From Porticoccaceae bacterium (GTDB lineage Bacteria; Pseudomonadota; Gammaproteobacteria; Pseudomonadales; Porticoccaceae), in NCBI GenBank assembly GCA_002689135.1, contig NZEU01000034.1, positions 1 to 46,479 on the forward strand: a stretch of DNA of 46,479 nucleotides. Direction: 5' to 3'. Below, piece after piece: positions 4,204 through 45,018 of the stretch (positions within the stretch are counted from its first letter, which is position 1; the number at the start of each line of letters is the position of its first letter). The notes under the pieces are model-generated. The model made no database searches, was not told where the DNA came from, and was given only the letters and a program-made list of their open reading frames with translations. The position numbers and the translations under genes are program-made.

Positions 4204-4488
4204 TCATCGATCGGACATGTCCATGATGTTGGGCATCGCTCTTATATCATTGTCGAAAGAATCGGACATGTCTCCAAGCGTTTCCAATATGGCGTCTGGG
4301 GACTTCGCCTTCCACCAGCAAAACATCGCCATATCATTTTCACCATTGTTCCAATTCATTTGTAAACTGGCGTTTTCATTCTTCATTCCAGCAGCAATTT
4401 CGTCTTGTGACATTTCACCGACTGATGAGAAGTGTTTTTGCCTTAGTTCCTCCGATTTGAAAGTGTGAACAACCAGATAATCCTGCAT
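4204..4488 (-). CDS. Hypothetical protein, possible ferredoxin-like fold
   Basis: 94-aa ORF; opposite-strand ORFs in the same place look spurious. Confidence 0.5.
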   Translation of the reverse strand: MQDYLVVHTFKSEELRQKHFSSVGEMSQDEIAAGMKNENASLQMNWNNGENDMAMFCWWKAKSPDAILETLGDMSDSFDNDIRAMPNIMDMSDR

Positions 4489-4799: not shown

Positions 4800-5171
4800 T
4801 CAATACAAGCTCGAAAATAGATAAGTAAAGATAGTGGCAGAAATAAAAATAAACCATGAGAAATAATAAATAATACGAGATCGTTTCCTTAATTTTAAGC
4901 AAAGTCTTCCTAACTCAGGGTCGAGGGGACATGGCGAATAAAAGCTTACGTAATTGAAATACCCTGCAATTATTAACATTATGAAAGTTGAGGCTGATAT
5001 ATAAATCTTAAACTTTGATAACGATACTAAAAGTGGAAAGGTAGTCACCAAAGTGGCTAAGGAAGCGCCCGCTCCCAAAGCAACGAATAACGCGGGCATC
5101 GCACAACAAATCAAGGTCGAAGAGGCTGCAAAGAGTGATAAGAAACTCAAGGACATATCAAACTTAGGCAT
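4800..5171 (-). CDS. MerT-like inner-membrane metal transport protein
   Basis: Hydrophobic; LICCAMPALFVALGAGASLATLVTTFP plus PCPLDPELGRLCLKLRKRSRIIYYFS; directly follows the HMA gene. Confidence 0.65.
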   Translation of the reverse strand: MPKFDMSLSFLSLFAASSTLICCAMPALFVALGAGASLATLVTTFPLLVSLSKFKIYISASTFIMLIIAGYFNYVSFYSPCPLDPELGRLCLKLRKRSRIIYYFSWFIFISATIFTYLFSSLY

Positions 5172-5173
5172 AA

Positions 5174-5581
5174 TTATCGGATTTCCAAGACAGCCAATTT
5201 CGTAGCTGTCTGTCCATTTTCCAAAATTTTTCTGCTGATGTATTCAAAGTCTATGATTGTGCCTTGCGAAAAAGCGATCAGCACTTTCCCTCTACCTAAG
5301 TCAACATCGACCTTGAATACCTCAGAGTTCCTCTTAAATGTTTTTTCTATGCCTCTGGCGCAAAAATCACAGACCATCCCGTTGACGCTGACAACCGCAA
5401 CTTTCATATCAGAGAGCCCATTGATGAATTCATTGAATCTTCTGGTGTCTACGTCAAATTTATCTCCATCAATTGATTCTTTATGTATGTGGTTAAGGTG
5501 ATCATGCTCTTCCTCCACTTCGGCATAAAGTGACATAATCGGGGCAATCACTGAGAGTCCTATCGTGAATAATTTGCGCAC
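5174..5581 (-). CDS. Periplasmic heavy-metal-associated (HMA) domain protein
   Basis: Signal peptide RKLFTIGLSVIAPIMSLYA, His-rich EEEHDHLNHIHKE, HMA-type VVSVNGMVCDFCARGIEKTF; GTG start at 5581 behind AAGGAA, instead of the ORF-track start at 5650. Confidence 0.75.
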   Translation of the reverse strand: MRKLFTIGLSVIAPIMSLYAEVEEEHDHLNHIHKESIDGDKFDVDTRRFNEFINGLSDMKVAVVSVNGMVCDFCARGIEKTFKRNSEVFKVDVDLGRGKVLIAFSQGTIIDFEYISRKILENGQTATKLAVLEIR

Positions 5582-5591
5582 AAAAACTTCC

Positions 5592-6194
5592 TTAAAACCT
5601 ATACATAAGATGTATATCCCACTCATTGTCTCTGCTGTATCCAGACTCAAACAACAAATTACCTTTGAAAAATTTTATCACAGGGTAAGCTGACCACTTT
5701 TTAGTGAGAGAATTTGTTCTTGTTTTGAGCATTACCCATGTATGTAAATCGCCATACTCACCGAGATAGGGAGCAAAACCGACTTGATAATCTTGATGGG
5801 TATAAGTGAGATTGTTCGTCTCTAGCTCCTTATAATTAAAATCCACATACCATCTTCTTGTCTCCCAATCTCCACGTAACCCAAAGAAATTATCATGAAA
5901 TTTGTCAAATCTGATCCCAGATTGGAAATAAACATTAACCTGAGAATCTTTGGTATTTATGCGTTTCAAAAGATAAGTCAACCTCAGATAAGAAAGGTTT
6001 GTTCTATAGTACTTGTTCTTTAGGCTTTCGACTCCAACAGAATATTTGTGTGAAGGGGAGTAGTGATAGTAAATAGATTCCTTCAAATGATTAGAAAATC
6101 CCATGACCGTTGACCCTCCCGGATATGAGATGGGTCTCGCTTCTAGATTGAAAGATTGAAAAAAAAACGCGAAAGCTAATATCCAGATACCCAT
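5592..6194 (-). CDS. Putative outer-membrane protein of a metal operon
   Basis: Signal peptide MGIWILAFAFFFQSFNLEA; amphipathic strands with terminal aromatic (HLMYRF); start at 6194 because the promoter lies inside the longer ORF. Confidence 0.6.
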   Translation of the reverse strand: MGIWILAFAFFFQSFNLEARPISYPGGSTVMGFSNHLKESIYYHYSPSHKYSVGVESLKNKYYRTNLSYLRLTYLLKRINTKDSQVNVYFQSGIRFDKFHDNFFGLRGDWETRRWYVDFNYKELETNNLTYTHQDYQVGFAPYLGEYGDLHTWVMLKTRTNSLTKKWSAYPVIKFFKGNLLFESGYSRDNEWDIHLMYRF

Positions 6195-6203
6195 AGGGGG
6201 TAT
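6187..6203 (-). promoter_or_regulatory. CsoR/RcnR-type G-tract operator candidate
   Basis: ATACCCATAGGGGGTAT inverted repeat overlapping the start codon, just downstream of a sigma70-like promoter. Confidence 0.6.
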
Positions 6204-6233
6204 AGTATATAAGATTTTAATGCCCAAAGTCAA
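6204..6233 (-). promoter_or_regulatory. Sigma70-like promoter of the metal operon
   Basis: Minus strand TTGACT - 18 bp - TATACT. Confidence 0.65.
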
Positions 6234-40775: not shown

Positions 40776-43700
40776 TTATCTCCCATTCGCTATTGAGGTG
40801 TTCATCGACGTCATCTCGTAGATACGACTTGGTAACACCAATAGGGCCGGCGTCAACAACAGCGTCATCACCGTAGATAACAACAAACCATCGACGATTG
40901 CACTGGCTAGCGGCTGCCACCAAGAGACAACCATTCCACCTCTCTCCCAACTGCGGTTAACAATATCGATACTAAAACCGTTCGCGAGAGGAAGCAAACC
41001 CACTATGGTTGTTGTCGAAGTCAAAATAATTGGTCGGAACCGAGATTTTGTTGCCTCAAAAACCGCCATTTCTGGTGTTATACCGATTGTTTTTTTTCTT
41101 ATATAGTTATAGGTATGTAGCAAGACGATATTATTATTCACAACAATCCCAGCCAAAGCCACAATACCAATCCCGGTTAATGTAATACTAAATACGTCTT
41201 TACCGACCAGTAACCCCAACAAAACTCCAGCTGTCGATATAACTACCGAGAAGAGTATTAAAAATGTCTGATAGAAGCTGTTGAAGTGGGCCAGCATGAG
41301 CACCAGCATAAGTCCCAAAGCAGTTCCAAAAGATATCAACAAAAAGTTGGCAGATTCGGCCTGCTCCTCATTGACCCCCCGAAATTTAACTTCAACATTG
41401 TGAGGAATATCGGCATTTTTTAGCCACGCATTAATCTGCCGTATTTGGTCATCAATCAGAAATCCTTTCTCAGAAAACGCCATAACCATAACAGACTCTT
41501 GCATATCCAGCCGGTTTATAGTGTCAATTTTATCGACAGGGCGTCTTTCCGTGAAAATACCTATCGGAACTGAACCAAGGGCTGAGTTCACAAGGAGACC
41601 ATCTAATTCGGTAAAATTTCTTTGTAATTTCGGGTACCTGAGACTTATTTCAACCTCTTCTTCAGCATCATCGGGCCGAAAATAACTCAAAGGCAAACCA
41701 TTCGTAACTAACTGTATTGATTGCCCTAAAGTCTTTACATTTACATCAGTCATGGAAGCTAAGGATCGATCAATTCGAAATTCCCATTGAACCCCCGCAA
41801 TCGGTATCGTATCTTCCAAATCCCTAAATCCATCAACGTTTTTCGAAATCCATTGTTTTATCCGATCCGCAGTTCGATACATTTCATCACGATTTTTGGA
41901 AGATACCTGAAGCTGCAAATCCTTACCTACTGGCGGGCCATTGTCAAGATTTTGGCCAGTAGCATTAACGCCGGGAATTTTGCCTAAAGCCACTCGAATT
42001 TTTGCAAAGACCTGCGCACTAGACAGTGCACGTTCTCTACTTGGCGTTAGTTCAACGAAAATTATACTTATTTGATCTTTACTTGTATCTTTTCGGATAA
42101 GCCAGCCCCCTCCACTGGTGGCGTGAAGCTTTTTGATTTCATCAAACTTACTTATGCTTTTCAAAACTTGATCGGTAAGACCCCGTTTTTGACTAACAGA
42201 GAGATTACCTTGAGCCCGGACTGATATAGTGCCAAATCGGTGCTCAGTCTCTGTAAAAAATTCACTTCCAATTCCAAACTTTACATATCCTAAAAACACC
42301 GATAGCAAAAATGTAAGCAATAGAGCCACCGTGATAAGTGGCCGGTTAATCACCTCTCTTAAAAGTTTGAGATAGATAACATAAAAATACGTTAAAAAAC
42401 CACCCAGAGGCTGTTTTGACGCATAACTTCGGTTTTTCGAACCATTCGAAAGTACGCTACGTTCAATCACTACTCCGAGCGTCGGCGCAAAAATCAATGC
42501 GTACAACAACGACCAAAGAAGCACAGCAAATACAGTAACCGGCATGTATGCCATGAATTTACCCGTTGTACCAGGCCAAAATAGTAACGGCGAGAAAGCG
42601 GCCAACGTGGTTCCTATAGACGCACCTATCGGTAATCTCATTCTTTCAACTGCCTCTTTATAAGCGTCTGAGGCATTTGTTCCTGTTGCCATTCTGGCAT
42701 CGGCAAATTCAACAACTACAATCGCACCATCAATCAGCATCCCCAATGATAGTAACAATCCAAACATAACGACAAAGTTGTAGCTATATCCAAGAAATAA
42801 AATTATAACCAGTGACCCAAGAAGACAAAAAGGAACAGCAAGTGTTACCAATATGCCGGATTGAAAGCCCAAAGTAGCGACGACGAGAATAAGAACCAAC
42901 GCCATCGCAGTCAAAATATTCCCTGTCAGCTCGTCCACAAGCGCCCGAGAGTAAGGAGCCGAATCAAATAAGAAATCTATGTTAATATTTTGAGAAAATA
43001 AATGGCGATCTCTTGTAACTAAGTCTCTCACCAACTGTACCGTTTCAATTGAATTTGCACCCGGACGCTTCATCACATCAAGCGTAATCGCATCAATACC
43101 ATTTACAGTGCTAAATCCGCTGGCATCTTTAAATTTTCGTGCAATTTGAGCCACATCGCCTAACTTTAAAACTCCATTCTCAGAACTCTTTATTGGAATT
43201 CCTCTTACGTCTCGCTCGTCCTCAATAAGTGCGGGTACCTTTATACTAAAAAGACCCGATATCGCGTCTAGTTGACCTGCGGGTACAACAAGGTTGTTGA
43301 CTGAAAAAATATTAAGAATCTCGTCTAAGGTAACTTGATAATATCTCAGCCGCTCTGGCATGAGTGAGATCTCTAATACCTCTTCCCGATATCCACCCAG
43401 TTTAGCCTCCAACACATGCGGCAACTTTTCAAATTGCGCTTCAAAATACTTTGCAACGGCATCCAGCTCTCGATGAGATTCTCCCGCAGCAGAAAACGCA
43501 ACAACTACCTCCGGCAACCGAATGCTTATCTCTTCGATTATTGGTTCCTCGGTGTCCTCTGGAAATTTTGTACTCGCTCTCTCGACTGCGTTTCGTAAAT
43601 CAGTCAAGACCCCTTTTGCTTGGCGATCAATTTCAAACTCCACAATAATTTGGATAGAGTCATCCCGTGAAGTCCCGATTATCTCCTTCACACCATCTAG

Positions 43701-43952
43701 ATTTTTTAATTCGCTCTCAATTGGAGTGATTAATAACCGAGCACCGTCCTCTGACGAAATTCCCTCATGTTGTACCACAATTAAAAAAACAGGTATCTGT
43801 ATATCTGGTTCCATTTCAACAGGGAGAGTTTTAAATGCGAAAACACCTACAGACAAAACCAGAAACATAATGAATAAAGTAACCTTCGGTGTCTTTATAA
43901 GGGAATTTATCACACCTACCTTCAAAGGGATCTCTGCTCGGTCTTTATTCAT
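40776..43952 (-). CDS. RND-family efflux transporter permease (AcrB-like)
   Basis: About 1058 aa; LPVEMEPDIQIPVFLIVVQHEGISSEDGARLLITPIESEL, GMLIDGAIVVVEF, GIVALAGIVVNNNIVLLHTYN; start ATG 43952 overlaps the adaptor stop. Confidence 0.94.
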   Translation of the reverse strand: MNKDRAEIPLKVGVINSLIKTPKVTLFIMFLVLSVGVFAFKTLPVEMEPDIQIPVFLIVVQHEGISSEDGARLLITPIESELKNLDGVKEIIGTSRDDSIQIIVEFEIDRQAKGVLTDLRNAVERASTKFPEDTEEPIIEEISIRLPEVVVAFSAAGESHRELDAVAKYFEAQFEKLPHVLEAKLGGYREEVLEISLMPERLRYYQVTLDEILNIFSVNNLVVPAGQLDAISGLFSIKVPALIEDERDVRGIPIKSSENGVLKLGDVAQIARKFKDASGFSTVNGIDAITLDVMKRPGANSIETVQLVRDLVTRDRHLFSQNINIDFLFDSAPYSRALVDELTGNILTAMALVLILVVATLGFQSGILVTLAVPFCLLGSLVIILFLGYSYNFVVMFGLLLSLGMLIDGAIVVVEFADARMATGTNASDAYKEAVERMRLPIGASIGTTLAAFSPLLFWPGTTGKFMAYMPVTVFAVLLWSLLYALIFAPTLGVVIERSVLSNGSKNRSYASKQPLGGFLTYFYVIYLKLLREVINRPLITVALLLTFLLSVFLGYVKFGIGSEFFTETEHRFGTISVRAQGNLSVSQKRGLTDQVLKSISKFDEIKKLHATSGGGWLIRKDTSKDQISIIFVELTPSRERALSSAQVFAKIRVALGKIPGVNATGQNLDNGPPVGKDLQLQVSSKNRDEMYRTADRIKQWISKNVDGFRDLEDTIPIAGVQWEFRIDRSLASMTDVNVKTLGQSIQLVTNGLPLSYFRPDDAEEEVEISLRYPKLQRNFTELDGLLVNSALGSVPIGIFTERRPVDKIDTINRLDMQESVMVMAFSEKGFLIDDQIRQINAWLKNADIPHNVEVKFRGVNEEQAESANFLLISFGTALGLMLVLMLAHFNSFYQTFLILFSVVISTAGVLLGLLVGKDVFSITLTGIGIVALAGIVVNNNIVLLHTYNYIRKKTIGITPEMAVFEATKSRFRPIILTSTTTIVGLLPLANGFSIDIVNRSWERGGMVVSWWQPLASAIVDGLLLSTVMTLLLTPALLVLPSRIYEMTSMNTSIANGR

Positions 43953-45018
43953 CTGGCTTATTTTCAAAAACTGGATCAATTATCTCACCAGCTAACACAT
44001 AATTCTGTCCAACGGTTATCAATGCAACAGTTTTCGCCAAGCCCGTGACCCACATTCCATGCTCGCTCTCACCAACAATGGTGACATGAGTGTTTTCAAC
44101 AACATTACTATCGGAAATTGTCCTGACAATAAGTTCGCCATTATCATCGAGCAATAAAATAGAACCCGGAATTTGGTGTGCAATAACTTTAGGAGTGGTA
44201 ACGATCAAATTTCCCAACACTCCTGCCCGCAGATGCGACGCTGTATTAGGGAATATTGCCTCTACCAAAAACGTACGAATTTCAGAATCAGCCACACTAG
44301 ATATGTAGCTAACAGTAGCCGAATACTTCCCACCATTATTGACATGGAACTCAACTAATTGCGCGGTTTCGAGTTGGCTAATTTGATGGTCCGTCACATG
44401 AGCCCTTACCTGTATTGGATCGAGTTCAACTATCGATCCACATAATTCTCCAGCTTGTAAATAATCCCCAACATCAGCGGATCTCGTCTCCAAAAAACCT
44501 TCAAAAGGGGCCTTAATCTGTAAATTATCAACTGCTTCTCTCGCAAGGTCTAAACGAACTCTAGCCTTTTCTAAATCTGCGGCTGCTCTGGCAATTGTTA
44601 ATTCAGATTGAAATTGATTTCTCTTGAGACTTAAAAATCCCGTATATTCAAGTTGCGATTTATGGAAGGATGCCTGTGCACTGACATAATCCGCTTTACG
44701 GCCATCGCTGGCCAATTCGCATATCGTTTGTCCAGCACTCACATACACCCCTCGTACTTGCGGCGTACTAATCACCTCACCGGTAATTTGTGCCTTCAAA
44801 AAAACATGCCGATTGGCATGGGTTTCTGCGAACAACTTCATAGTGGGTGAGTAATATTCCGACGAGTAATACCGTGCTTGCACCTGCGTTAGCGCAACAC
44901 CATCGCCTGTACCGGAATTATTTGTAGAGCCAGTTTTCTGTGGGACCCAAAGGCCACTTACCAACCACATCAGGACAGTGACCGCCAAAAGGAGCGACAC
45001 TCGAGCATTACGGTTCAC
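43945..45018 (-). CDS. RND/HlyD-family periplasmic adaptor subunit
   Basis: N-terminal anchor, barrel-sandwich VRGVYVSAGQTICELASDGRKADYVSAQA ... LQIKAPFEGFLETRSADVGDYLQAGELCGSIVELDPIQVRAHV. Confidence 0.92.
   Translation of the reverse strand: MNRNARVSLLLAVTVLMWLVSGLWVPQKTGSTNNSGTGDGVALTQVQARYYSSEYYSPTMKLFAETHANRHVFLKAQITGEVISTPQVRGVYVSAGQTICELASDGRKADYVSAQASFHKSQLEYTGFLSLKRNQFQSELTIARAAADLEKARVRLDLAREAVDNLQIKAPFEGFLETRSADVGDYLQAGELCGSIVELDPIQVRAHVTDHQISQLETAQLVEFHVNNGGKYSATVSYISSVADSEIRTFLVEAIFPNTASHLRAGVLGNLIVTTPKVIAHQIPGSILLLDDNGELIVRTISDSNVVENTHVTIVGESEHGMWVTGLAKTVALITVGQNYVLAGEIIDPVFENKPDE

Follow-up and report, generated by a model that had tools for sequence, protein, structure and literature searches.

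The locus raises the question of which metal is handled by three adjacent genes that link the outer membrane, the periplasm, and the inner membrane, and in which direction that metal moves. The genes lie in the window, the whole stretch of DNA analyzed here, which comprises the first 46,479 bases of a contig of 66,630 bases (G000:C27) in a draft genome of 1.86 Mb (82% complete). The original prediction proposed three neighboring minus-strand genes for an outer-membrane protein, a periplasmic HMA protein, and a small MerT-like protein, and all three were found with the motifs quoted for them at 6194-5592, 5581-5174, and 5171-4800. This three-gene reading stood, albeit it did not include the operator, csoR as the fourth gene, the separate position of csoR in the window's species, or the absence of CopA and CusA. 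We regard the locus as a real, conserved, CsoR-controlled metal operon, of which the metal is most likely copper.

Products of the three genes

The first gene (5592..6194, minus strand) encodes a protein of 200 aa with a signal peptide and the C-terminus ...LMYRF, for which neither a Pfam match nor a PDB sequence match was found. The AlphaFold2 model, based on 15 aligned sequences, displayed 12 strands (pLDDT 82, pTM 0.74), and the closest solved folds were outer-membrane barrels, including the 12-strand porin KdgM, with moderate TM-scores of 0.53/0.59. The barrel fold that had been anticipated for this protein was thus recovered by modeling, and the assignment of the product as an outer-membrane beta-barrel is well supported by the predicted structure. 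For the start of this gene, the listed TTG at 6233 appears less likely than the ATG at 6194, since the genes of the relatives start at the latter position.

After a gap of 10 bases, the second gene (5174..5581, minus strand) encodes a putative periplasmic HMA protein of 135 aa, which comprises a signal peptide, a His-rich stretch, and an HMA domain with CDFC (PF00403, 26.3 bits against the cut-off of 24.8), and carries both GMVCDFC and HDHLNHIH. GMVC-FC was invariant in 15 sequences, and GMVC-FCA-GIE was among the invariant residues of the protein. The best matches of the HMA profile were the copper HMA domains of ATP7B, CopA, and CopZ, with E-values of 1e-28 to 1e-9 as compared with 6e-5 for MerP. 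A signal-peptide-like N-terminal segment was recognized by reading in all of the aligned members. The protein can be described as CopZ-like but with a predicted periplasmic location, unlike the cytoplasmic CopZ. The His-rich stretch is variable: the window's protein has 4 His, that of L033 has 15 His and 6 Met, and that of G016 has no His there.

The third gene (4800..5171, minus strand) follows after only 2 bases, and both gaps are operon-like. It encodes a putative inner-membrane protein of 123 aa with three hydrophobic segments, including ICCAMP and PCPLDPELGRLC. Cys22-Cys23 reside in the first segment, and the basic loop that leads into the third contains Cys81 and Cys91; these four cysteines and Pro26 were invariant among the aligned MerT-like proteins, and the protein was the best conserved of the three products. 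The cysteine layout matches that described for MerT (PMC5715351), whose first of three membrane segments carries a Cys-Cys pair and whose third is preceded by a loop with two further Cys. No Pfam family, including PF02411 (MerT), matched the window's protein at the cut-off, and a distant homologue received 20.1 bits against the PF02411 cut-off of 32.9. PF02411 matched nine of the 12 aligned family members at E-values up to 1 (the best being 1e-6), and hhalign against a canonical MerT, which was found in one of the loci, gave a probability of 72% (E 3e-5). The fold search with the weak model of this protein (pLDDT 67) gave no useful match. The few annotated relatives of this MerT-like family are labeled as hypothetical or heavy-metal proteins. 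The NCBIfam entries NF033556 (MerTP fusion) and NF045683 (MerT/CopZ selenoprotein) also combine MerT-like and HMA parts but represent fused or selenocysteine forms, and the scores obtained here were far below the cut-offs of these models. Downstream of the operon, a gene at 4204-4488 on the minus strand encodes a 94-aa protein that weakly resembles the nickel-responsive SCO4226-like family (E 0.0097, below the cut-off); it is about 95% identical in close relatives and unlinked to the operon elsewhere.

The adjacency of MerT-like and MerP-like proteins, together with the weak matches of the MerT and MerP profiles, may suggest a degenerate mer operon that detoxifies mercury or another soft metal. 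As in MerT-MerP, the three hydrophobic segments with their cysteines are accompanied by a periplasmic HMA partner from the neighboring gene. Nevertheless, the operon differs from mer in having an outer-membrane barrel, no adjoining merA, and a MerT similarity below the Pfam cut-off, and instead of MerR control we found CsoR, with copper ligands, and a CsoR-type operator (see below). In reading through the ORFs of 170 aa or longer in the window, we found neither merA nor a P-type ATPase, as had been claimed before, and merA was absent from the conserved operon as well. A canonical mer operon, already dismissed in the original prediction, was rejected on account of the regulator, the missing merA neighbor, and the HMA profile. 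With this profile closer to the copper domains than to MerP, the degenerate version is most improbable.

The operator and the CsoR regulator

A perfect inverted repeat, ATACCCCCTATGGGTAT, is located at 6187..6203 on the minus strand and represents a CsoR-type operator of the form TAC-N9-GTA with G/C tracts. For Streptomyces CsoR, the operator rule of TAC-X9-GTA with G-tracts was defined by mutagenesis, the copZA2 site being ATACCCCCTAGGGGTA (PMC3902906), and the window's palindrome obeys this rule. The consensus scan predicted a -10 hexamer, TATACT (6204..6209, minus strand), which directly abuts the operator, and a -35 hexamer, TTGACT (6228..6233, minus strand). This pair has 10 of 12 consensus matches with a spacer of 18, a match level near chance in the scan, and the prediction is supported by its position beside the operator. 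The operator extends over the predicted transcription start and encloses the start codon (ATG) of the barrel gene. If the -10 hexamer is right, the transcript would start within a few bases of the ATG and may be leaderless.

The sole exact copy of ATACCC-N5-GGGTAT in the genome is the operator of the operon. In the genus genomes, the palindrome occurs about once per genome, at the operon, and the reversed control pattern is rare. Across 32 distinct upstream sequences, the TACCC and GGGTA columns were almost invariant with varying flanks, and the palindrome was found at the start of the first operon gene in all relatives free of truncation or masking there. The site is one base shorter in two close species (G009 and G012). 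The conservation and rarity rule out a chance palindrome. We also rejected the idea that the palindrome is retained merely through its overlap with the coding start (Met-Gly-Ile), because many genomes of g10, the genus in which the operon is patchy, place the ATG behind the palindrome (TACCCTATGGGGGTATG) and still keep the latter.

The window's genome possesses one CsoR-family gene (PF02583, 86.5 bits against the cut-off of 22.8). In 26 of the 36 close loci, csoR is the adjacent fourth gene directly after the MerT-like gene, and in G016 it leads the operon, preceded by its own site. In the window's species and near relatives, csoR lies apart from the operon; in the former it is on another contig, with a site that is one base short at its promoter (TACCTGAGGGGGTA). 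The CsoR gene was found in all of the 17 g10 genomes with the operon and 3 of the 33 without it (Fisher p 1e-10, kinship ignored). In G068 (C1:85351-85757, L144), csoR sits beside a fragment of a MerT-like gene bearing a stop codon, with the intact operon 27 kb off, as if an old copy of the operon had decayed and csoR had been left behind.

The CsoR alignment demonstrated that the Cys-His-Cys Cu(I) ligands and the preceding Tyr, as in the copper sensor of M. tuberculosis, are kept in all clade members. Cu(I) binding makes CsoR release DNA (PMC10141476, PMC11978298). On the other hand, members of this family sense Ni (InrS), Ni/Co (RcnR), formaldehyde (FrmR), or persulfide (CstR) (PMC5016687), and the clade's CsoR bears a conserved extra N-terminal Cys-His (NPCH), both of which are compatible with a sensor of nickel, zinc, or persulfide and an operon that handles that signal. 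Considering that the best PDB matches of the regulator were copper CsoRs, InrS and FrmR being clearly weaker, and that the copper ligand set is kept throughout the clade, we judge such a sensor very unlikely. The CsoR-type operator and the co-located CsoR with the copper ligand set lead us to predict copper as the metal, and copper regulation of the operon is well supported by the sequences compared.

In several near relatives, csoR diverges from a gene encoding a Met/His-rich outer-membrane-like protein of 350 aa (DHxHKKGE...), for which no Pfam match was found; the region separating the two genes contains a similar palindrome in most cases. The 350-aa gene is likely a second target of CsoR. 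The divergent pair with a CsoR-like site in between is present outside the window at G000:C26:7247-8659 (L076; DHYHKKGEWMISARQSHMEM), and the gene pair was found in G003, G006, G011, G071, G092, and others. Such a second CsoR-linked gene, as well as the His-rich segments that precede the HMA domain and reach 15 His and 6 Met in L033, would fit periplasmic sequestration without cytoplasmic export, in which the HMA protein and the barrel capture copper in the periplasm or drive it out, and the role of the MerT-like protein is only to return or reload it. We consider sequestration of this kind rather unlikely, as conservation is highest for the MerT-like protein and the operon persists in G016 without the His-rich part.

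Distribution of the triad and the standard copper exporters

The genes for the barrel, HMA, and MerT-like proteins are kept head to tail in this order in dozens of gammaproteobacterial genomes, even where the flanks differ. The gene order was identical in 15 relatives, namely 14 other genomes of the genus or family and one named contig (L024), some of them with flanking genes that have nothing in common with those of the window. In the widest comparison, the same order was found in L113-L142 and L164-L169; the genomes of other families with the triad are of 1.0 to 1.3 Mb (L164, L165, and L167-L169) or 3.2 Mb (L166). The locus L039 ends at a contig edge, where most of the MerT-like gene is absent. 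The compared genomes are mostly draft or metagenome assemblies, and the named relatives with the MerT-like gene are Porticoccaceae bacteria of metagenome-assembled or single-cell origin. As order and adjacency are kept across genera and families, even with wholly different flanks, the grouping of the genes is not by chance, and the co-occurrence in relatives that the original prediction called for was borne out.

MerT-like genes of this kind were detected in 51 of the 370 gammaproteobacterial genomes sampled, and an HMA gene adjoins the MerT-like gene in nearly all of the loci inspected. Beyond the close clade, a barrel-like gene of another family adjoins in about 20 of 23 loci (by reading); the proteins of this family often begin with AHDPIFGLGPHVL, and one of them scores as PF13557. 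The module of an outer-membrane protein, an HMA protein, and a MerT-like protein is thus wider than its CsoR-controlled form in the window. The other gammaproteobacterial triads (L038, L172-L192) resemble the operon in the HMA-MerT pair and the barrel-like protein but differ in the family of the barrel, in having MerR where a regulator was seen and no CsoR, and in being sometimes near CusABC-like pumps. The wider clusters frequently contain genes for MerR, glutaredoxin-like, and CcdA-like proteins. The cluster with the AHDPIFGLGPHVL-type outer-membrane protein is widespread in Gammaproteobacteria (L172, L173, L177-L179, L185, and L188-L192), and several of these loci also encode MerR, a CcdA/DsbD-like membrane protein, and a protein resembling glutaredoxin; no description of the function of this cluster was found in the literature searched. 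The plasmid search retrieved only distant relatives, in Variovorax and on a Vibrio plasmid. In the latter (L194; Vibrio diabolicus plasmid NZ_CP069194.1, 4712-6356), a Tn3-family transposase is accompanied by genes for a MerT-HMA fusion, a GDCCVxC (seleno)protein, and a hypothetical protein of 244 aa, so the module may be mobile.

CopA is close to universal among cells. The 14 genus genomes, of which five are at least 94% complete, contained no real match to CopA (TIGR01511), whereas TIGR01511 was found in 12 of the 14 family genera and all of the 14 control genomes. Likewise, CusA/CzcA (TIGR00914) was found in none of the 14 genus genomes at E 1e-150. In the window, the minus strand encodes an RND-type pump and a periplasmic adaptor at 40776-45018, with no match to the heavy-metal RND model at E 1e-150. 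Within g10, CopA was present in 2 of 17 genomes with the operon and 7 of 33 without it (p 0.70), and the operon and CopA occur together in G022 and G081. A loss of CopA that tracks the operon genome by genome is unsupported within this genus. As CopA is scarce in g10 with or without the operon, its absence is a trait of the lineage and no proof of replacement by the operon.

A proposed role in copper stress and the direction of flow

The copper-stress operon that we favor, with reserve, would be derepressed through CsoR and move Cu(I) outward via the MerT-like and HMA proteins, to be held or released via the barrel. At low copper, CsoR would sit on the palindrome, which covers the transcription start region and the start codon, and block transcription. 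With a rise in cytoplasmic Cu(I), CsoR would bind the metal via Cys-His-Cys and leave the DNA. The MerT-like protein would then load cytoplasmic Cu(I) on Cys81/Cys91 of the basic loop and transfer it to Cys22/Cys23 in the first membrane segment, from which the CxxC site of the HMA protein in the periplasm would accept it. The Cu(I) would next be either kept by the His-rich segment or let out through the 12-strand barrel. In this reading, copper as the metal in vivo, the outward flow, the transfer from protein to protein, the part played by the barrel, and the chemistry are inferred.

The cited work on MerT bears on both the steps and their direction. MerT shuttles Hg(II) among a periplasmic CxxC partner, the Cys24/Cys25 pair, and a cytoplasmic Cys pair, and the known MerT-MerP transport is inward, to MerA, which counts against the outward reading (PMC5715351). 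The weak point of export is the energy coupling: with neither an ATPase nor an obvious coupling in the MerT-like protein, outward transport would need a sink or a gradient. The same inward precedent, along with the fact that small porin-like barrels usually admit solutes, would suit copper acquisition or allocation, in which the barrel and the HMA protein take up or retain copper and the MerT-like protein carries it inward to supply cuproenzymes, CsoR only tuning the amount. As several g10 genomes lack both the operon and CopA, there is no evident strict requirement for export. Against import, genes released by Cu(I)-loaded CsoR, as far as studied, are those for efflux or protection (review PMC10141476). 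A CsoR-type repressor turns its genes on at high Cu(I), and copper-induced import would worsen the excess in a harmful positive feedback; no MerA-type reductase sink was seen. Related triads outside the clade, moreover, lie in islands of metal-resistance genes that also contain CusABC-like pumps or a DUF411-like gene (by reading). We consequently regard acquisition as unlikely.

The proposed copper-stress operon shares its kind of repressor and operator with the CsoR-copZA operons of Bacillus, Streptomyces, and Listeria, as well as a copper carrier of the HMA type and, in the position of CopA, a cysteine-bearing transporter in the inner membrane. It differs from them in lacking a P-type ATPase, in encoding an HMA protein that is exported, and in having the MerT-like protein and the outer-membrane barrel in place of CopA. 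The operon would then substitute for CopA and Cus in these genomes. Tentatively, and with less confidence than in the copper-stress operon itself, we propose a copper exporter without a P-type ATPase, in which an outward MerT-like protein, an HMA carrier, and a barrel replace CopA and Cus in streamlined marine gammaproteobacteria.

No published description of the operon was found in the open-access literature searched. It combines known parts in a new variant and is a possible new mode of copper export. A genus that has neither CopA nor CusA must control Cu(I) otherwise, and the CsoR-controlled operon is the main candidate seen. The operon is probably how these marine bacteria handle excess copper and, if true, the copper-stress reading would define which metal is moved, and in which direction, by a MerT-like family that is found in 51 of 370 gammaproteobacterial genomes.
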